Source: Arthrobacter sp. SDTb3-6
GTDB taxonomy: Bacteria; Actinomycetota; Actinomycetes; Actinomycetales; Micrococcaceae
Assembly: GCF_013376095.1 (NCBI RefSeq)
Contig: NZ_JAAMFN010000021.1
Span: forward strand, 1-64,000
Reading direction: 5' to 3'
Length of the DNA stretch: 64,000 nt
The translations under genes and the position numbers were made by a program. The notes beneath the pieces were generated by a model. That model saw nothing but the letters and a program-made list of their open reading frames with translations. It was not told the DNA's origin and searched no databases. This document shows positions 1 to 8,159 of this stretch, in pieces; the stretch's first letter is position 1, and each line of letters opens with the position of its first letter.

Positions 1-269
1 CAATCAACCAACTCGTTGCTTCGAGGGTATGACACCGCCCACCCGTTCTTCCATATCGTCTAAGCAAAACGGTTATAGATAACGAACCTGCACAGCTCGT
101 CCGCGCCACTATCGTATTCTCCTGCGCCAGGAGCGCCCGGCAGCTCGGCTCCGTGTTGCGCGGCCACTTCCTCGATCGGGTCCGGATACAGCCCAGATCG
201 GTGAAAGCGGTCATCCACGACAACAGCGCCTTGGAATACCCAAGCTCCTCGGTGAAGTACTACATTGTG
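1..269. other. unassigned window edge, probably decayed coding sequence
   Basis: No convincing gene is visible. Minus-strand reading frames are interrupted by stops and do not keep one frame. Because it continues the cysD remnant next to it, this is probably more of the same decayed sulfate-activation region (the cysD 3' end or the start of cysN), but I could not match it to a family. Confidence 0.3.
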
Positions 270-690
270 GCCGGCGAGGCGGTCGGGTCGATTTCCTGAA
301 AGGGGACGTCCAGGGTGGCGGGCTCCACGGTCCTTTACTACACGTTGCTGACCGACGTGGGTTCGCCCTAGGTGGGCGGGCAGAATCGGTTGGCCGCAAA
401 CCACATGCCGTTCCGTTCGGAGACTGCACCCCGATGCGCATAATAGATGGGCGGGACGGCGGATTCCTTCTGGGTGATGTAGTCCCAGACATCAAGTTCA
501 GGCCTGCTGGACGACAGGCGTTTGGAACCGGTTCCTGGCACCGCCGCGGCCCTCATAGACGAGGTTCCTACCGTTTGCGTCCCGCGCGAAGGCCGCCACT
601 CCCCGGATGCTGTAGGCGGCCTCCTCTTTCAAAACCAGCAGCTGGGAATTGTGCCGGCTTGGGCCCGCGTCAAAAGCATGGTTCACGTCT
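270..690 (-). pseudogene. cysD: remnant of cysD (sulfate adenylyltransferase subunit 2)
   Basis: Two out-of-frame minus-strand fragments look like CysD, the small subunit that makes APS from sulfate and ATP. The upstream fragment reads LLVLKEEAAYSIRGVAAF, like the CysD N-terminal helix (LE.E..YI.REVAA). The next reads ELDVWDYI, then PPIYYAHRG, then ERNGMWF, like the conserved C-terminal stretch (ELDVWxYI...P.IYYAHER.V..RDGMW). The PP-loop nucleotide site (SGGKDS) that should lie between them is missing, and stops follow. This implies an internal deletion plus frameshifts, so no working enzyme is made. Its place just after cysQ is where an intact cysD is often found in actinobacteria. The assignment rests on motif memory, not an alignment. 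Confidence 0.55.
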
Positions 691-713
691 TGTTCTTGCC
701 CCCCGGGAGGGTT

Positions 714-1535
714 TCACTCGTCGGTGCCTTGGTTCACCCAGGCAAGGCCATGGAGCATCAGGGCGGCGATGTCTTGTTGACACAGCAGCAGGTCAGGCAG
801 GTACGGCACCGCCTGGTTGTACAGCAGCGCCGAGCCGTCAATCCTGCTGGCGTGCATGCCGGCATCGCATGCTGCAAACACCGGCGCTGCCGAATCCCAT
901 TCGTACTGCCCTCCGGCATGGACGTACGCGTCCGCTTCACCGGTGGTGACCAGCCAGGCCTTGTACCCGACCGAGCCCATGGGCAGCAGGTCGGCCTCGA
1001 GATATTCGGCAAGCCGTTCCGCGAAGTCCGGCGGCCTGGTGCGGGAAACCGCGATGCGCAGGCGGTCCCGGCGGCCGCCGCCATGAATGGGCTGCCGGTG
1101 TCCGTCGCCAATCATGCAGCCTTCGCCTGGCACGGCCACCGCGCCGGCCACGAGCTGCCCGCTTTCCCACAAGGCCACGTGGACCGCCCAGTCCGGTCTC
1201 CTTTCGGAGAACTCCCGGGTTCCGTCCAGCGGGTCGATGATCCAGACCCGGCTGGCCGATAGGCGCTCCGGGCTGTCCGCCGCTTGCTCGGAGAAGATGA
1301 CGTCACCCGGGCGCTCACGCCGCAGCGCCGAGTCCAGGAATTCCTGAGACATGGCGTCACCCGTGTTCTTCAACGCGCGGCCGGACAAGTGGCTGGCGGC
1401 AGCATGTTCCTGCAACTGCACCAGCAGCTCGCCGGCGTCGCGGGCCAGGCTGACGGCAAGCGCCTGGTCCTGGCAGGTGCGCAGCATCGCCAGGACCCGT
1501 CTGCCAGGGTCCTGCACTATCTGGTGGACCGTCAT
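714..1535 (-). CDS. cysQ: 3'(2'),5'-bisphosphate nucleotidase CysQ
   Basis: This 273-residue protein of the inositol-monophosphatase superfamily should hydrolyse PAP/PAPS to AMP/APS, clearing the by-product of sulfate assimilation. The metal-binding signature VWIIDPLDGTREF sits near residue 100. The earlier acidic pair reads SEQ rather than the usual EE; the first glutamate is kept. The late motif YEWDSAAPVFA matches the family W-D-xA-A/P element that binds metal and substrate. The ATG overlaps the stop of the upstream truncated glycosylphosphotransferase as TAATG, so translation is probably coupled. The cysD remnant follows downstream. The usual role is in sulfate reduction, although cysD here is broken. 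Confidence 0.85.
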   Translation of the reverse strand: MTVHQIVQDPGRRVLAMLRTCQDQALAVSLARDAGELLVQLQEHAAASHLSGRALKNTGDAMSQEFLDSALRRERPGDVIFSEQAADSPERLSASRVWIIDPLDGTREFSERRPDWAVHVALWESGQLVAGAVAVPGEGCMIGDGHRQPIHGGGRRDRLRIAVSRTRPPDFAERLAEYLEADLLPMGSVGYKAWLVTTGEADAYVHAGGQYEWDSAAPVFAACDAGMHASRIDGSALLYNQAVPYLPDLLLCQQDIAALMLHGLAWVNQGTDE

Positions 1536-2431
1536 TAGTACGCCCCCTTCGGAATGGTATGCATCCCGGCCGGGCCGCGGGCCACCACGGCAAAAACGGG
1601 CAGGAGCACCACCGATCCGGTGGCGGATCCTTCCAGGTCCCAGCCCAGCCTTTGGAGGAACTTGCTGCCCCGGTTCACGGGCCCGGCCACAATCACGGCG
1701 TCAGCGTTGAGCCGCTCCACGGCCTTGACCGCGGTCAGGATCGAGGCCACGACAGGTATGCCCTGGCCGCCCACCTCCAGGAATTTTTTTCGGTTCCCCT
1801 CCGGCAGGGCGGCCCCGATGACCTCGTAGGCGGCCCCGGACTTTTTCTGGATTTGCCCGATCACGTATTCCACGTCACCGCGGCGGCCCAGGACAATGAC
1901 GCGGGAGAGGAAGTGGCCAAACTGCCGTTGCCGGGTTAGCCACTGCCGCAGGCCCCAGCGAGAGACAAGGAGCCCGGCAATGCCCAGCGGAAGCGCCAGG
2001 CCAATGTAGCCCCGGGCCACTTCGAGCTCAAACGCGAGCGCCAGCATGGCCATGGTGCCCAGCACGGACACCGTGGCCGAGGTGACCCGCCGGTATTCAT
2101 CCAGCCCGATCCCCACCACGCGGGCATCGCGGCTGCGGTAGGCACTGAGGATCGCCAGCCACAGGACGGCCACGGCGAAGGACAGGTGCACGTAGTCAAC
2201 CTTCAGCGGGCCGAGGACCATGTGGCCGCCGGCGGCGCCAAACCGCAGGAATGACGCCAGCAGCAGGACGGCGGCCAGCACAATGATGTCTGAGGCCCAC
2301 AGCAGGTACCGGTAGCGTGCGGCCCAGGGGGCCCCGGACTCGCGGGCAGTGGATCGAAGGCCGGCCGGGTGTTGTGCCCGGCCGGTTTTTTCCTGGGCAG
2401 CCGCATCAGCGGGGCCGTCCAGGGGGCTCAA
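1535..2431 (-). CDS. truncated polyprenyl glycosylphosphotransferase (N-terminal half only)
   Basis: This 298-residue product matches the N-terminal part of WcaJ/CpsE-type enzymes that start exopolysaccharide repeat units on undecaprenyl phosphate. Residues about 40-160 form four hydrophobic segments (for example LLWASDIIVLAAVLLLA), and about 175-290 form the CoA-binding-like domain (SRVIVLGRRGDVEYVIGQI). The protein stops where the family continues into its catalytic domain (KRxFDxxxS...), which is absent; normal length is about 480-500. It begins with TTG, with an AGGGGA ribosome site about 7 bases upstream. Its stop overlaps the cysQ start. It cannot transfer sugar phosphate and is either a relic or a membrane sensor fragment kept for coupling to cysQ. 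Confidence 0.7.
   Translation of the reverse strand: MSPLDGPADAAAQEKTGRAQHPAGLRSTARESGAPWAARYRYLLWASDIIVLAAVLLLASFLRFGAAGGHMVLGPLKVDYVHLSFAVAVLWLAILSAYRSRDARVVGIGLDEYRRVTSATVSVLGTMAMLALAFELEVARGYIGLALPLGIAGLLVSRWGLRQWLTRQRQFGHFLSRVIVLGRRGDVEYVIGQIQKKSGAAYEVIGAALPEGNRKKFLEVGGQGIPVVASILTAVKAVERLNADAVIVAGPVNRGSKFLQRLGWDLEGSATGSVVLLPVFAVVARGPAGMHTIPKGAY
2361..2391 (+). terminator. Rho-independent terminator-like hairpin on the plus strand
   Basis: CCGGCCGGG and CCCGGCCGG form a perfect 9-bp stem around the loop TGTTGTG, followed directly by six T. It has the textbook form for plus-strand transcription, but it lies inside the 5' coding part of the minus-strand truncated glycosylphosphotransferase. 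No plus-strand gene is visible upstream of it in the window. Confidence 0.55.
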
Positions 2432-2931
2432 GGCAGTCCCCTGGGATCTGAGACGGTGAAACGGGGGACCGGCGACGGCTGGGGGAAAGCCTTGGTCTCA
2501 GAAGGCTTTTCCGCCGCCGGCCCCGACCTGGGGAGCAATCCATCCACTGGGAGGTATTTCCCGGGATGAACGGCTCGGGTGCGGGGATCGCGAATCAGGG
2601 CCGCGAAGGGGATGGATTGGGGCGTCTGCCAATTGTGGTTCCAGTTGCCAGACAGCATTCCCAAGACCCCCTGAGACCCGACGATTCGTATCGAAAAGTT
2701 GCTATGGCTCAACGCTATTGCGGCCTGCCGCGCTGCACACGCGTAGCCTTCACTCGACTTCAGCCCGGCTGCTACGCGGACGGCATGCGGGACTACTTGC
2801 TTCGCTCCCGCCGTCCACCGATTGCCGCGTGGGTGCCCCCGGCAGGGGCCCGGGCCCCTCGTGCCCACCACTCGGGAGCGGCAAAAATTACGCATTTCCG
2901 GTGCCCGGCCGGGCTGGCACAATCTCCGGAT
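2432..2931. other. 500-bp intergenic region with small inverted repeats
   Basis: This lies between the divergent minus-strand glycosylphosphotransferase relic and the plus-strand TSUP exporter. AAAGCCTT (2486-2493) and AAGGCTTT (2502-2509) form a hairpin with an 8-base loop. A perfect GC palindrome, GGGGCCCGGGCCCC, is at 2845-2858, about 75 bases before the exporter start. An open frame from 2566 runs in phase into the exporter, but its composition is unlike protein and I did not extend the gene into it. I recognise no riboswitch or cysteine-rich leader peptide. Confidence 0.4.
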
Positions 2932-3906
2932 ATGGACATCTGGATGGGAGCCGCCGCCTTCGGTGTGGGGATCGTCGTTGGCCTGACCGGCATGGGAGGC
3001 GGGGCGTTGATGACGCCGGCCCTGGTGCTGGTTTTTGGCGTGCCCCCGCTGGCTGCCGTGTCCAGCGACCTGGTGGCCAGTGCCGTGATGAAACCCGTGG
3101 GCTCGCTGGTGCACCTGCGCCGCAGGACGGTGAACCTGGAGCTGGTCAAGTGGCTGGCGGCGGGTTCCGTGCCGGCGGCGTTTGGCGGCGTCCTCATCCT
3201 GAAGTGGATGGGTCCGGGCGACGCCGTGCAGGACGGTGTGCGCAACGCCCTGGGCGGCGCCTTGCTGCTTTCCGCGCCGCTGTTGGCCGTCCGTTCCTAC
3301 CTCAAGCTGGTCCAACGGTCCGCGGCACGCCCGGGCCCGCCGGCGTCGGACGCGCCCCCGGGCCTTCGTCCCCGGCCGGTGCCCACCGTGTTGCTGGGCA
3401 TGCTTGGCGGCGTGGTGGTGGGCATGACCTCCGTGGGTTCCGGATCCATCATCATCATCGGCCTGATGGCGCTGTACCCGGCCATGAAGGCCAGCCAGCT
3501 GGTGGGGACGGACCGGCTTCAGGCCGTCCCGCTCGTGGCTGCGGCCGCCCTGGGGCACACCCTGTTCGGGGACCTGGACCTGGCCCTGACCGTTCCCCTT
3601 CTGTTGGGCAGCATCCCGGGCGTGTACCTGGGGGCCCAGCTCTCCAGCAGGCTGTCCGGCGGGTTCATCAGGCGGGCCCTGGCGTTTGTGCTGCTGGCCT
3701 CCGGGCTGAAAATGCTTGATTTTCCCGACCAGGCAACGGCGATTGCGCTGGCACTGCTGCTGCTTGCGGCCCCGCTGGCGTGGATGGCGGTGCGCCGCCG
3801 GCACGGCCTGCCGGCCCTGGCCACCACGGAGAACCGACGACGCCGGGCGGCCGCCGCTGTAGGCACCGGCCCGGCGGAAGGGGGCACTGCCCACCATGGC
3901 GACTGA
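2932..3906 (+). CDS. TSUP-family sulfite/sulfate exporter (TauE/SafE)
   Basis: This membrane protein of about 324 residues has roughly eight hydrophobic segments in two halves, each opening with a glycine-rich motif of the TSUP family: GLTGMGGGALMTPALVLVFG in the first and GMTSVGSGSIIIIGL in the second. Such proteins export sulfite, sulfonates or related oxyanions. Being followed by CysC favours a sulfur substrate. The frame is open further upstream, but ATG 2932 is chosen because the family starts with the first membrane helix (MDIWMGAAAFGVGIVVGLTG). A soluble, disordered C-terminal tail of about 35 residues follows the last helix. The stop overlaps the next gene by 11 bases, which suggests a two-gene operon. 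Confidence 0.8.
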   Translation: MDIWMGAAAFGVGIVVGLTGMGGGALMTPALVLVFGVPPLAAVSSDLVASAVMKPVGSLVHLRRRTVNLELVKWLAAGSVPAAFGGVLILKWMGPGDAVQDGVRNALGGALLLSAPLLAVRSYLKLVQRSAARPGPPASDAPPGLRPRPVPTVLLGMLGGVVVGMTSVGSGSIIIIGLMALYPAMKASQLVGTDRLQAVPLVAAAALGHTLFGDLDLALTVPLLLGSIPGVYLGAQLSSRLSGGFIRRALAFVLLASGLKMLDFPDQATAIALALLLLAAPLAWMAVRRRHGLPALATTENRRRRAAAAVGTGPAEGGTAHHGD

Positions 3907-5257
3907 ACAATCCGGGGCCCCCGCTGCCGTGCTGGCCCTCTCCGGCGCACGCCTCGATGAACTGGAACTGCTCACCGGCGGGCTCCTGGCCCCGGCCGAC
4001 GGCTACTGCCTGCCGCACGCCGTCCCCGGCCACTGGCCCGCACCGCTCACCCTGGCCGTCCCGCCGGACCTGGGGCGCGACGCCGTTGCCCGGGGCTGGC
4101 TGCTGGTGGGCGACCCCGACGGGACACCGCTGGCCCGCCTGGGCGTGGAGGGTTCGCAGGCCTCCGCCGACGGCAGCTCCCTGTACCTGGCCGGCCGCCT
4201 GACGGGCCTGCGCAGCGCCGAGCACCCGCCGGCCCGCAGGCTGCGCGTGACCGGGCCCCTGCACGCCATGGGCCCTGGCCGTCCCGGGACCGTCGCTGCC
4301 GTGTTCTCCGAGACGCCCCGGCCGTGGCAGCTGGCCGAGGCCATGCCCACGGCATTGCGCGCCAAGTCCGTTCTCTGGCTCATCGCCCTCTGCGGACCGC
4401 AGCCGCACGGCCGGTACACCGTTGCACCGCTGCTGCACGAACTCGAATCCGCGGCAGCCCACATCGACGGGGCCCGGACAGGCCTGCTGGTGCTGCCCGC
4501 AGACCCGGTGGGCCCTTCCCCGCAGGACCGGGTGCTGAGGAAGCGGGTGTTGGCCAACCTGGGGGCGGACCACACCCTGGACTACACGGTTGCCGGTTCG
4601 ACGCCCGGCCGGTCCCGGACCGGCGTCGGGAACCGGCACGACGGCGCCGGGAACCGGCACGACGGCGGCACCCCGGCACCGGCCGGCACCGTGGTGTTCC
4701 TGACCGGCCTCTCCGGTTCGGGCAAGTCAACCGTGGCCCGCGCCTTGGCGGAGCGGCTGCAACGGCACGCACCGTCACCGCCCATACTGCTCGACGGCGA
4801 CGACGTGCGCAGGATCCTTTCGCCGGGACTCGGCTTCTCCCGGGACGAGCGGGAGGCCAACATCCACCGGATCGGCTGGGTGTCGTCGCTGGTCGCGGCC
4901 GCGGGCGGGCTGGCCATTTGCGCCCCGATTGCCCCTTTTGACGAAACGCGCAGGCAGGTGCGGGCCATGGCGGAGGGCGTGGGCCGGTTTGTGCTGGTGC
5001 ATATTTCAACGCCCCTGCCGGTGTGTGAGGCCAGGGACCGGAAGGGCCTGTATGCCATGGCCCGGCGCGGCGAGGTCCGGGACTTCACGGGGATTGATTC
5101 GCCGTACGACCATCCGCAGGATGCCGACCTTCACCTGGACACGAGCCGGATCACGGTTGGGGAGGCGGTGGAGCAGATCGTGCGGTTGCTCCAGGGCCCG
5201 GCCGGCGCAGCCCGTCAGGCTACTCCAGGGCCGCCCGCAGCTCGTTGCGGGACGTGA
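3896..5257 (+). CDS. cysC: adenylyl-sulfate kinase (CysC) with ATP-sulfurylase-like N-terminal domain
   Basis: This 453-residue protein has two parts. Residues about 265-430 are an APS kinase, which phosphorylates adenylyl sulfate to PAPS. It carries the P-loop GLSGSGKST, DGDDVRR, the segment GFSRDEREANIHRIG, and the lid region ARDRKGLYAMARRGEVRDFTG. Residues about 10-200 resemble the N-terminal (PUA-like) portion of ATP sulfurylase (PADGYCLP; VAPLLHELESAAAH), but I see no clear HxGH-type catalytic motif, so adenylylation is doubtful. A low-complexity linker with a repeated RHDG segment joins the two. It overlaps the exporter gene by 11 bases. Its 3' end also overlaps the convergent LAL gene by 38 bases, so the last dozen codons may not be original. 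Confidence 0.8.
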   Translation: MATEQSGAPAAVLALSGARLDELELLTGGLLAPADGYCLPHAVPGHWPAPLTLAVPPDLGRDAVARGWLLVGDPDGTPLARLGVEGSQASADGSSLYLAGRLTGLRSAEHPPARRLRVTGPLHAMGPGRPGTVAAVFSETPRPWQLAEAMPTALRAKSVLWLIALCGPQPHGRYTVAPLLHELESAAAHIDGARTGLLVLPADPVGPSPQDRVLRKRVLANLGADHTLDYTVAGSTPGRSRTGVGNRHDGAGNRHDGGTPAPAGTVVFLTGLSGSGKSTVARALAERLQRHAPSPPILLDGDDVRRILSPGLGFSRDEREANIHRIGWVSSLVAAAGGLAICAPIAPFDETRRQVRAMAEGVGRFVLVHISTPLPVCEARDRKGLYAMARRGEVRDFTGIDSPYDHPQDADLHLDTSRITVGEAVEQIVRLLQGPAGAARQATPGPPAARCGT

Positions 5258-7946
5258 CCCGCAGTTTCGAATAGACCTGGTACAGGTGGCCCTCCACGGT
5301 CCGGACCGAAATGTGCATCTTGGCCGCGATTGCCTTGTTGCTTTCCCCGGAGGCAGCCTCGGCGGCAATCTCCTGTTCCCGGACGGTCAGCACCTGGCCG
5401 TCTTCGCTCGTGACCCGGACACGGCCCAGCCTGAGCACACCCTCACGGATGAGCTGCTGGGCCAGCCGGCCGCCTTCCCTGTCTGCGTTTTCATTGGCGA
5501 TCCGCAATGCCGCGCGGGCCACATCGCGGGCCAAAAGGTCATCCCCCTGGTTGGCGGCCGCCCCTGCGGCCTCCAACAGCGTGGTGACATTCCTGGCCAT
5601 GAGGCCCTTGCCAAATGCTTCACAAATCCGTGAGAGCGGGCCTTTCACCCGGCTGGCAACAGCCACCAGCCGTTGCGCACTCACGGCACTGCCCAGCCGC
5701 ACGGCGGCGTGGCACAACATCATCTCCACGGTGGCCGTACGGAATTGCCGTTCCTGGTCGGCCATGGCCAGCAGCCTCACGATTGCCTTGTCCGCCGAGG
5801 ACAGCTCGGCCGTGGCCAGCTCCACGAAGTACCTGCACCCCACCCCCACGAGCCGCGACGATGCGGGGGCGGCGGGCACCTCGTTCAAGTGGAGCCAGGC
5901 AATGTCGATGTCGCCCTTCAGCGCATAGGCATACGCGATGGCTGCGCACGCCAGCGCATGGGTCCCCGACTCGCCCAGCTGGGCCAGTTGGCTGGCCACG
6001 GGCACCAGGTGTTCCAAGGCCTTGTCCGCCCTGCCGCAGCAGGCGTCCACGAGTCCTTCCGCCAGTTCCTCATAGGCGGTGAAGCGTGCCCCTACGAAAG
6101 TACAGGCCGGCGCGCGGGACAGTCCCGGGGTGGGACCCTCGGCCGTCAGCGAGACCACCACGGCGAACATCAGTGCGGAGTCTGAAATCCTGGGAATGTC
6201 CCCGGACATGTCCGGAGGCAGCTCGCGGAGTCCAATTTCCTCCGCAACGTTGAAGGCGTCGGTGACCCGCCCGGTGAGGATCCAGGCTCCCACCAGCCAA
6301 TGCGCGGCCCGGGTGCGCATCCCGCTGCTGCCGTTGCGGTACAGCCGTTCAAGCTCCAGGGCGGCCTCATAGTAGCGGCCGGCGTGCATCAACTGCTTCA
6401 CCGTCGCCATGGCCAGCTCTTCACCCAGGAGGCTGGGGACGGTCCCGTCCCCAGCGTTCCCGGGCACATCCCCGCCGGACGGACCCGCCACGGCTTCCTC
6501 GGCGTCGAGCCGCTGCCGGACCTGCTCCAGGATGTCAAAGGGATCGAAGCCGGCATGTTCCTGCCCGCGGGAGAGGCCGCACCGCAGCAGCATCAGCTCC
6601 GTCCATTCCGCGAGCGGCAGGTGGCCAAGCTCAAGGTCGGGGTCAAACGCCACACTGCGTGCCTTGGCATATTCGCCCAGGGCCACCAGCGCCCGGACTG
6701 TCTCGGTCACCCTGCCGGCCTGCCGCGGACGGCGGGAGACGGTGTTGGCAATCCGCAGTGCTTCGCCGGGAAAGCCGGCCGTGGTGGCGTCATGTGCCGC
6801 CGCAATGGCGGCTTCGTCGTCGAGCGGGATGCCGCAGTCGATCGCCCACGCGGCCAGGTCGAAGCTCATGCCGCCCGGCCCCGATGCGCTGTCCATGGAT
6901 CGCTGGACCATGCCCAGGAGTTCGCGGCTGTGCCCCGTGGGCACCTGCGCGCGAAGCACCTGTTCCATGAGCCGGTTGGCGAGCCTGACCGTGGCTGACT
7001 CGTGGTGGTCCACCACCAGATAGCCGCGCTGCTGCAATGAATCGACGTGCTCGCCGTCGCACAGGGCCATCAGTTGGTTCAGCGGCAGCCCCCCGGACAG
7101 CGCCAGCAATTCGGCCACCGTGCGCTCCCCCGCGGAAACGGACCGGAAGGCCGCCATGACGGTGTCAATGCTGCCGGGGCCGCAGGCAAAGGGGGCACCC
7201 GTGACAATCCAGATCCCCTCCCGCTTGACCAGCGTGCCCGCGGTGACCTGTTCGTGGATGATGACTTCCAGGAACCGGGGGTTGCCCCCTCCCCCGGCCC
7301 ACAACGCCCGGACTGCCGATTTGGAGACCTTCGCCCCCAGCAGCGCCTCCAGCCATTGCCCCGTTTCCACCTCGGTAAACGCATCCACGTCCACCCGTTT
7401 GATGAGCCCGTCCCGCCACAGGCCCACGATCTCGGAAGGCGCCGCGGGAAGCGACTCGCTGGCGGCCAGCAAAAACACCACCCCCGTGGCGGCCAGCTGC
7501 GTGATGACCATGGCGGAGCGTTCGTCGGCCTGGTGGATGTTGTCCACAAAGAGGACAATGCTGCGTCCCTTGGCACGGTCCTTGAGAAGCTGCGTCACGC
7601 TGCGCAGGACCACCAAGGGGTTGTCGGGCGGCATCTCCCCCAGATCGGCCATGATGGGGTTCAGGGCCCCGAACTCCATCCTGGCGGTGACGGAAGTGCA
7701 CCGGAGGGACAGCACCAGGACGTCCGGGCCAATGTGCTCAATGATCTCGCGGGCAATGAACGTTTTGCCCACCCCGTAATCCCCCACGAGGATGACGCCG
7801 TTGCTCTCCTCGTTGCGGAGCTCTTCAAGGACCGAGTTGACCACGGCCTCGCGGCCCAGCGCAGCCGTGGCACCTTCGACTTCGCTGCCAGGAACAGCCC
7901 TTTGACTTCTGGTGCCTGCAAATAATGCAGTAGTCATGTGTGCCAC
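5220..7946 (-). CDS. large LuxR-family regulator with AAA ATPase domain (LAL paralogue 1)
   Basis: This 908-residue signal-transduction ATPase/transcription factor has an N-terminal NTPase with Walker A GDYGVGKT near residue 54 and Walker B IVLFVDNIHQAD near 130. A long helical, TPR-like middle follows, and a C-terminal LuxR helix-turn-helix (LTVREQEIAAEAA, then ISVRTVEGHLYQVYSKL) occupies the last 65 residues. GTG 7946 is preferred because AGAAGG lies 8 bases upstream; ATG 7937 is the alternative. It is the most downstream of three tandem paralogues but has its own 213-bp upstream gap, so it may be separately transcribed. The ligand and target genes cannot be told from sequence. Confidence 0.8.
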   Translation of the reverse strand: MAHMTTALFAGTRSQRAVPGSEVEGATAALGREAVVNSVLEELRNEESNGVILVGDYGVGKTFIAREIIEHIGPDVLVLSLRCTSVTARMEFGALNPIMADLGEMPPDNPLVVLRSVTQLLKDRAKGRSIVLFVDNIHQADERSAMVITQLAATGVVFLLAASESLPAAPSEIVGLWRDGLIKRVDVDAFTEVETGQWLEALLGAKVSKSAVRALWAGGGGNPRFLEVIIHEQVTAGTLVKREGIWIVTGAPFACGPGSIDTVMAAFRSVSAGERTVAELLALSGGLPLNQLMALCDGEHVDSLQQRGYLVVDHHESATVRLANRLMEQVLRAQVPTGHSRELLGMVQRSMDSASGPGGMSFDLAAWAIDCGIPLDDEAAIAAAHDATTAGFPGEALRIANTVSRRPRQAGRVTETVRALVALGEYAKARSVAFDPDLELGHLPLAEWTELMLLRCGLSRGQEHAGFDPFDILEQVRQRLDAEEAVAGPSGGDVPGNAGDGTVPSLLGEELAMATVKQLMHAGRYYEAALELERLYRNGSSGMRTRAAHWLVGAWILTGRVTDAFNVAEEIGLRELPPDMSGDIPRISDSALMFAVVVSLTAEGPTPGLSRAPACTFVGARFTAYEELAEGLVDACCGRADKALEHLVPVASQLAQLGESGTHALACAAIAYAYALKGDIDIAWLHLNEVPAAPASSRLVGVGCRYFVELATAELSSADKAIVRLLAMADQERQFRTATVEMMLCHAAVRLGSAVSAQRLVAVASRVKGPLSRICEAFGKGLMARNVTTLLEAAGAAANQGDDLLARDVARAALRIANENADREGGRLAQQLIREGVLRLGRVRVTSEDGQVLTVREQEIAAEAASGESNKAIAAKMHISVRTVEGHLYQVYSKLRVTSRNELRAALE

Positions 7947-8159
7947 GGGTGAGACCTTCTATTCACTAACAAGAGTCATTTGAATGCCCAATGAATAGAC
8001 TATGAAGCCGCGGCCGCGTTGACACGAGTGGTCGCTACTCGACTTCCAAGTACTCAGCCCGGCGGCGACGCGCAAGTGTACTTGTTTTTGACCAAGTGGA
8101 GCGGCCGCCACACCCGTACCCGGGCAGCTTTCCGCCCCGCATCATCCCCTGGGCGGCCG
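7947..8159. repeat. intergenic spacer between LAL paralogues with GTACTTG inverted repeat
   Basis: This spacer holds CAAGTAC (8047-8053) and GTACTTG (8078-8084) as an inverted pair; the second copy is followed by five T. The same core (GAGTACTTGTTTTT) recurs at 41785 before the Tad locus. It is probably the promoter region of the first LAL gene. No confident -10/-35 pair was found. Confidence 0.4.

Follow-up and report, generated by a model that had tools for sequence, protein, structure and literature searches.

The window (the whole stretch of 64,000 nucleotides that was analysed) starts where contig C59 starts, in a draft genome of 144 contigs from an Arthrobacter strain, and the locus considered here lies 1.5 kb from that contig end. 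On its minus strand, a leader element is followed by the remnant of a polyprenyl glycosylphosphotransferase gene, an intact cysQ-type phosphatase gene and a broken cysD, and two conserved neighbours are read divergently (Table 1). The remnant is a frame of 298 codons, running from a TTG start to a TAA stop, and it is not random, since only 3 of 2000 mononucleotide shuffles were open over that length. The last A of its stop codon is also the first base of the cysQ ATG, giving TAATG (1533-1537). Both the clean frame and this overlap had been described in the initial annotation and were found as described.

Table 1. Features of the phosphotransferase-cysQ locus and the evidence used to place them (window positions)
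Feature	Position	Strand	Evidence
cysD relic with missing blocks, a frame change and stops	302..656	-	comparison to E3 protein
cysQ-type phosphatase, intact frame (named from best model, score below cut-off)	714..1535	-	profile matches
Polyprenyl glycosylphosphotransferase (large phosphoglycosyl transferase) gene remnant, 298 codons	1535..2431	-	frame, domain matches, full-length relatives
Original C-terminus, 13 codons + stop, ending ..KGAY*	1535..1576	-	codon shuffles against 12 relatives
AAGGGGG, Shine-Dalgarno-like site of cysQ within the retained last codons	1543..1549	-	read from sequence
Site of deletion 2, ~156 codons (468 bp) lost: rest of PF02397	1577..1579	-	spacing in 12 relatives
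Probable catalytic-domain fragment VVLLPVFAVVA, residues 274-284	1580..1612	-	protein and DNA matches to relatives
Site of deletion 1, loss of ~52 codons (156 bp) with the linker and the first part of PF02397	1613..1618	-	spacing in 12 relatives
N-terminal half, residues 1-271: membrane helices and PF13727, undecayed	1619..2431	-	alignment to relatives, invariant-site counts, structure model
Conserved stem-loop leader element, 70 bases, before the phosphotransferase gene	2460..2529, core 2487-2507	-	covariation, genome searches
TauE-type exporter, divergent neighbour, conserved context	2935-3906	+	domain matches, relatives
APS kinase-domain gene, divergent neighbour, conserved context	3896-5257	+	domain matches, relatives

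Large phosphoglycosyl transferases of the WbaP/WcaJ type put the first sugar phosphate onto a lipid carrier. The 298-codon product matches PF13727 (CoA_binding_3, E 9.8e-08) and the N-terminal half of TIGR03025, the model of exopolysaccharide polyprenyl glycosylphosphotransferases, and no match to the sugar transferase domain PF02397 was obtained within its 298 aa. Residues 1-271 can be aligned to relatives, loosely over the first 30, and homology to the N-terminal half ends at about residue 271; in a 506-aa relative PF02397 begins at residue 313. The earlier description of a frame stopping exactly at the border of the catalytic domain thus has to be revised: the linker is gone too, and the last 25 residues appear to consist of a piece of the catalytic domain (274-284) and the original C-terminus (286-298). 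Clean truncation at the domain border was rejected for the same reason. The protein resembles the WbaP/WcaJ/TIGR03025 family in its membrane helices, its PF13727 domain and the operon place of its full-length relatives, and differs from it in having nothing of PF02397 beyond the probable 11-residue fragment and the C-terminal end. The start codon TTG (window 2429-2431) is replaced by ATG in 10 and by GTG in 2 of 12 relatives, and it is a possible sign of weakened expression.

Full-length forms of the gene are widespread. A search of 23 genomes of the genus, own genome included, gave two best matches besides the window itself, 57% identical and lying in frames of 509 and 533 aa. The corresponding genes encode 506 aa in genome G015, taken to be Arthrobacter sp. 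E3, and 514 aa in G002 of the same genus, and each carries both PF13727 and PF02397 (E of the latter 4e-68 and 1.5e-67, respectively, and 1.7e-67 in the other copy of the own genome, on contig C75). In both relatives the phosphotransferase gene is followed by cysQ, cysD and cysN, and the TauE-type exporter and APS kinase-domain genes stand on the divergent side, as in the window; the LuxR-type gene of the window's divergent side is also present in G002. The window keeps, of this arrangement, cysQ and the cysD relic. The comparison of the junction in relatives that the initial annotation had proposed was thus carried out: E3 and G002 have the full-length gene, and the E3 junction with cysQ is TAATG as well. 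The first ~260 residues of the APS kinase-domain product (window 3896-4684, plus strand) gave no Pfam match at E up to 0.001, and its G002 homologue aligns over residues 14-429 of 453. In E3, two full-length phosphotransferase frames lie ~8 kb apart on contig C89, each with a leader element.

At the level of the family, 395 genomes were searched and at least 150 matches, counted by eye, were obtained. Among the 150 matches listed, 147 lie in open frames of at least 500 aa, and the three shorter frames belong to the window (320), to G327 (371) and to G003 (352). In G327 and G003 the catalytic half is still present in another frame; the genus search gave, in addition, a 264-aa frame on contig C2 of G003 with the catalytic half in other frames, so that such frame changes hide the catalytic half once in G327 and twice in G003. 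These split phosphotransferase genes (L018 and L039 in G003, L051 in G327) are interrupted in or near the catalytic half, either by genuine breaks or by sequencing errors. A second set of 80 named loci, from genomes partly overlapping with the family-level set, was collected by scanning genome contigs with alignment A2, the same scan with the window protein alone having given no matches. The catalytic half is in frame with the N-terminal half in 79 of these loci, including one with a stop inside the matched stretch whose frame was judged by arithmetic alone (L168), and the 80th (L164) runs off its contig. A cysQ gene lies at most 400 bases downstream of the phosphotransferase gene in 9 of the 80. 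Among the family-level matches listed and the 80 named loci, the truncated 298-codon form occurs in one genome only.

The missing part can be located from the spacing in relatives. Between the equivalent of residue 271 and the fragment there are 54 codons in all 12 relatives versus 2 here, and between the fragment and the C-terminal tail there are 157 codons in 11 relatives and 159 in one with masked bases, versus 1 here. The sum of 298 and 208 is 506, the length of the E3 gene, and both losses are in frame; about 208 codons are missing, a gap best explained by two deletions, each a multiple of three bases long. Both deletion junctions also seem to carry short direct repeats, a few bases in length.

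The fragment VVLLPVFAVVA, which we take to be a segment of the re-entrant membrane helix, resembles a hydrophobic stretch near the start of PF02397, and 10 of its 11 residues are the same as in locus L045. Its best ungapped DNA match is in the reading frame in 42 of 45 relatives; by eye, this match falls on the exact segment in 24, close to it within that hydrophobic stretch in 16 and at some distance in 5. In the protein comparison, the best match stands behind the linker motif in 33 of the 39 relatives with a recognisable motif and before it in 6. The 11-residue piece thus seems to derive from the catalytic domain. For the tail, the identity of the last 13 codons to the last 13 of 12 relatives was reached in none of 2000 codon shuffles, and in 12 of 2000 when GAY was omitted, and the 10-codon piece without the last three codons ranks third among 200 in-frame offsets. 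A reading of GPAGMHTI as the GLTGMWQI motif was dropped in favour of the better-fitting ungapped match to the last 13 codons.

A frameshift hiding the domain was rejected, because no significant match to the catalytic half was found in window 1-8000. The proposal that the catalytic half had been deleted gains support from these data, since relatives have this half and the window gene lacks it, and when the E3 catalytic half was searched for in the own genome, only the copy on contig C75 was obtained. The refuting case named in the initial annotation combined full-length genes in relatives with a domain missed through error. The first part holds; as for the second, there is no frameshift, and the bases are absent rather than out of frame. 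The deletions could, of course, be artefacts of assembly or sequencing near the contig end, and the position of the locus at the start of C59 in a draft of 144 contigs, with the adjoining cysD also missing blocks, invites such a thought. We consider it very improbable. Both junctions are in frame, their repeats seem to be of a few bases and would be too short for a usual assembler to join, and the sequence flanking each junction has a normal base composition at the three codon positions. The damage of cysD includes point stops, and in the genome, whose completeness is put at 99.97%, the catalytic-half search found nothing besides the copy on C75.

The end of the gene touches cysQ very closely. 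A Shine-Dalgarno-like AAGGGGG stands seven bases ahead of the cysQ ATG, and its counterpart in the E3 gene is GAGGGGG. Since the full-length E3 gene overlaps cysQ by TAATG as well, the tight overlap predates the loss of the catalytic domain, and a fusion to cysQ by chance, as had been suggested for the truncated gene, is unnecessary; with full-length genes directly preceding cysQ in relatives, this idea was rejected. An overlap of -1 or -4 with a nearby ribosome-binding site is expected of a termination-reinitiation pair, and here TAATG and AAGGGGG provide both. Reinitiation at short overlaps was reported to be efficient in the E. coli gene pairs tested, and for two E. coli pairs the last 15 bases of the upstream gene were reported to suffice (PMC10666635). 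The window pair is similar to known coupled pairs with a -1 overlap in having a ribosome-binding-like site inside the upstream gene and differs in that the upstream partner is a remnant; judged from this likeness, translational coupling of the 298-codon frame to cysQ may be inferred.

The name of cysQ itself calls for some caution. On the CysQ model the window gene scores 91 bits and E3 cysQ 96, both below the cut-off of 229. The own genome has yielded three other phosphatases of this superfamily, whose identity to the window protein does not exceed 41% and covers only part of it; they score best as HisN or inositol phosphatase, one of them passing the HisN cut-off and the others reaching none. 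Since one HisN-type phosphatase, L172, reaches 117 bits on the CysQ model, neither the name CysQ nor the status of sole enzyme is secured for the window gene.

These features have led us to consider that the frame may persist as a pure leader, its protein being useless and only the ribosome reading into TAATG being of importance for cysQ. Retention of TAATG and AAGGGGG, the in-frame deletions, the conservation of cysQ (6 of 94 invariant residues changed) and the distance of the three other family members all agree with this. A leader, however, could do without conservation of its protein sequence, yet the N-terminal half retains 70 of 72 invariant residues; cysQ has its own Shine-Dalgarno-like site and may start alone, and the higher score of L172 means that the window gene need not be the sole source of the activity. 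We regard this explanation as quite improbable in its pure form.

The rest of the operon is in decay. Three pieces of cysD are left, spread over two frames and with stops; in the E3 protein they correspond to residues 11-32, 90-124 and 192-258. In the second and third pieces, 22 of the 58 positions invariant in ten relatives are changed, and the relatives, each left out in turn, show 0 to 3 changes at 53-56 such positions in slightly different columns (residues 97-124 and 192-258). The first piece, with 5 of 9 positions changed, was left out, as its match overlaps the second by several residues. A cysN belonging to this operon was not found, since the contig ends before one could appear, and the best cysD-cysN match elsewhere in the own genome is a pair on contig C99, 61% and 53% identical. 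The full-length phosphotransferase on contig C75, the only other match to the E3 catalytic half in the own genome, is 30% identical to the window protein; its surrounding genes look polysaccharide-related by eye. Two further genes of the E3 region were sought in the own genome and gave no match, an empty answer that is uninformative for lack of a positive control.

The N-terminal half of the phosphotransferase shows little of this decay. Of the 72 positions in residues 32-271 that do not vary among 12 relatives, two differ in the window; for the relatives, the same count gives 0 to 6 changes at 70-76 positions. The corresponding figure for cysQ, 6 of 94, is the highest of ten, the others having 0 to 4, with L009 dropped from the count because its sequence looks frame-damaged. 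The contrast of 2/72 in the N-terminal half with 22/58 in the cysD relic (Fisher p 2.5e-07) indicates that this half was constrained for most of the time of cysD's decay. In simulations, neutral change as large as that of cysD left 271 codons open in ~4% of runs or fewer, and an open frame is unlikely if the gene has been neutral as long as cysD.

An own codon model with F3x4 frequencies, kappa and branch-specific omega was fitted to eight taxa. For the N-terminal half, omega on the window branch was 0.089 versus 0.037 elsewhere, which is not significant (2dlnL 1.12). The E3 branch gave 0.107 (2dlnL 2.09), and the G002 branch deviated in the opposite direction at a branch-length bound (2dlnL 4.18). 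For cysQ, omega on the window branch was 0.092 (2dlnL 1.68). Fits with L004 and L049 as foreground in the N-terminal half and with L049 in cysQ ran into the bound, and the power of the model is low because silent sites are saturated. The comparison of silent and replacement changes that had been recommended at the outset thus found no excess of replacement changes in the N-terminal half, a result also expected from a recent deletion. If the deletions occurred recently, the constraint of this half can be a carry-over from the full-length gene.

The tail is less similar to relatives than any relative is, and 2 of its 4 family-invariant positions are changed versus 2/72 in the N-terminal half (Fisher p 0.012), although the counts are tiny and based on an inferred alignment; the fragment gave no comparable sign of ageing. 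These changes are a weak hint that the truncated state may not be brand new.

The structure of the N-terminal half was predicted by AlphaFold2 on an alignment of 32 N-terminal halves. The model has a mean pLDDT of 79 and comprises helices at 33-67, 80-97, 110-133 and 140-170 plus an alpha/beta domain, mostly confident, with the exception of residues 13-21 and 273-298. In a fold search of the PDB, WbaP 8t53 was the only match with E below 0.001 (E 1.3e-05; TM-score 0.51 by query length), and a PDB sequence search with the profile gave no match. A WbaP-like fold is thus predicted for this half. The PF13727 domain of WbaP is reported to make most of the inter-chain contacts of the dimer; uridine nucleotides stabilise the domain in isolation, and the enzyme is inhibited by UMP (PMC10942596). 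These dimer contacts and the response to uridine nucleotides suggest that a stand-alone half could in principle be a decoy or a sensor.

Selection may then have kept the N-terminal half as a stand-alone membrane protein, which would dimerise via PF13727, sense uridine nucleotides and act as a decoy or regulator of the C75 enzyme or of sulfate-linked surface chemistry. The purifying pattern in residues 32-271 next to a decaying cysD, the two in-frame deletions, a tail that has changed as in a truncated state of some age, the confident predicted fold and the reported properties of the WbaP domain all speak for it. The form was, however, met in one genome only among the family-level matches listed and the 80 named loci, the constraint may be a legacy of the full-length gene, the tail counts are tiny, and the C75 paralogue is a distant partner. 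In our opinion, such a function is unlikely. Its boldest form, in which a priming glycosyltransferase was turned by in-frame catalytic loss into a selected membrane sensor or decoy, coupled to CysQ and linking PAP turnover, or the priming enzyme that remains, to the level of uridine nucleotides, appears to us improbable. A record-level literature search found no paper on this case when such truncations or cysQ-linked transferases were looked for.

Summarizing these data, it may be concluded that the 298-codon frame is probably the relic of a domain loss of fairly recent date, lying in a dying operon and kept open, with its tail, by cysQ. The ancestral operon would have consisted of the leader followed by genes for the phosphotransferase, cysQ, cysD and cysN, combining priming with sulfate activation, with the phosphotransferase as the first gene. 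Two in-frame deletions have removed the linker and nearly the whole catalytic domain, leaving TAATG and the last codons in place. Judging by what is known of the family, the transferase reaction would have been lost with the domain, and the full-length C75 copy presumably serves the cell instead. The open frame would persist for two reasons: little time has passed since the loss, and the right end of the gene serves cysQ as ribosome-binding site and termination-reinitiation point, so that cysQ would have been expressed less after any loss that broke the frame or took away the tail. A membrane protein consisting of the N-terminal half, inactive as a transferase, may still be produced.

Like in-frame domain-loss pseudogenes of decaying operons, the remnant has lost an essential domain, stands next to a broken neighbour and was seen in one genome. 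It differs from them in that its 298 codons are open and its N-terminal half has no excess of replacement changes; what remains is free of frameshifts and stops and has no significantly raised omega, and a recent loss would look alike. Several points speak against regarding it as a relic. The N-terminal half looks functional in its invariant positions, its near-background omega and its good model; an open frame would be unlikely after neutrality as long as that of cysD; the fragment is a short hydrophobic stretch, with 21 of 45 best DNA matches off the exact segment and 6 of 39 best protein matches before the linker motif; the tail without its last three codons ranks third among the offsets; and the locus is close to a contig end. 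Conservation of the protein half exceeds the need of a pure leader, so that recency or residual function must be added to the relic reading.

The puzzling half gene is thus explained, with probability rather than certainty, as a domain loss in a decaying operon, which by itself is a modest finding. A tight coupling to cysQ would be older than the catalytic loss, and the locus offers a natural case of the accessory half of a large phosphoglycosyl transferase without its catalytic half, in which the own role of this half could be tested.

The leader element may matter more than the relic. Its loop TGAGACC is nearly invariant, and in 26 distinct copies 99.5% of the cells pair, a value reached in 0 of 500 shuffles. 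Five pairs are changed on both sides (reached in 4 of 500 shuffles), whereas for the count of additional pair types the shuffles do as well, 487 of 500 reaching it. G-U alternates with A-U and G-C at the same places, which points to RNA rather than to a DNA palindrome. Folding of the window copy alone, flanks included, gives a z-score of only -1.89. Window 1-8000 had no match to any Rfam family at E up to 1, and a record-level literature search for such a leader found no paper. The core, with at most one mismatch, occurs in 18 of the 23 genomes of the genus, and a covariance model found the element in 205 of 390 family genomes and 16 of 32 genera, in up to 6 copies. The element is a candidate for a new regulatory RNA. 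Among 28 distinct copies, 26 lie 56-363 bases before a matched phosphotransferase start, a figure biased by the choice of most loci for that gene. The leader also precedes other genes, several of them polysaccharide-related. Six downstream proteins, from sixteen regions with the leader elsewhere, were tested; they comprised one class-V aminotransferase, one cytidylyltransferase-like protein (~0.9 kb away), two LuxR-type regulators, one polysaccharide deacetylase and one phosphotransferase.
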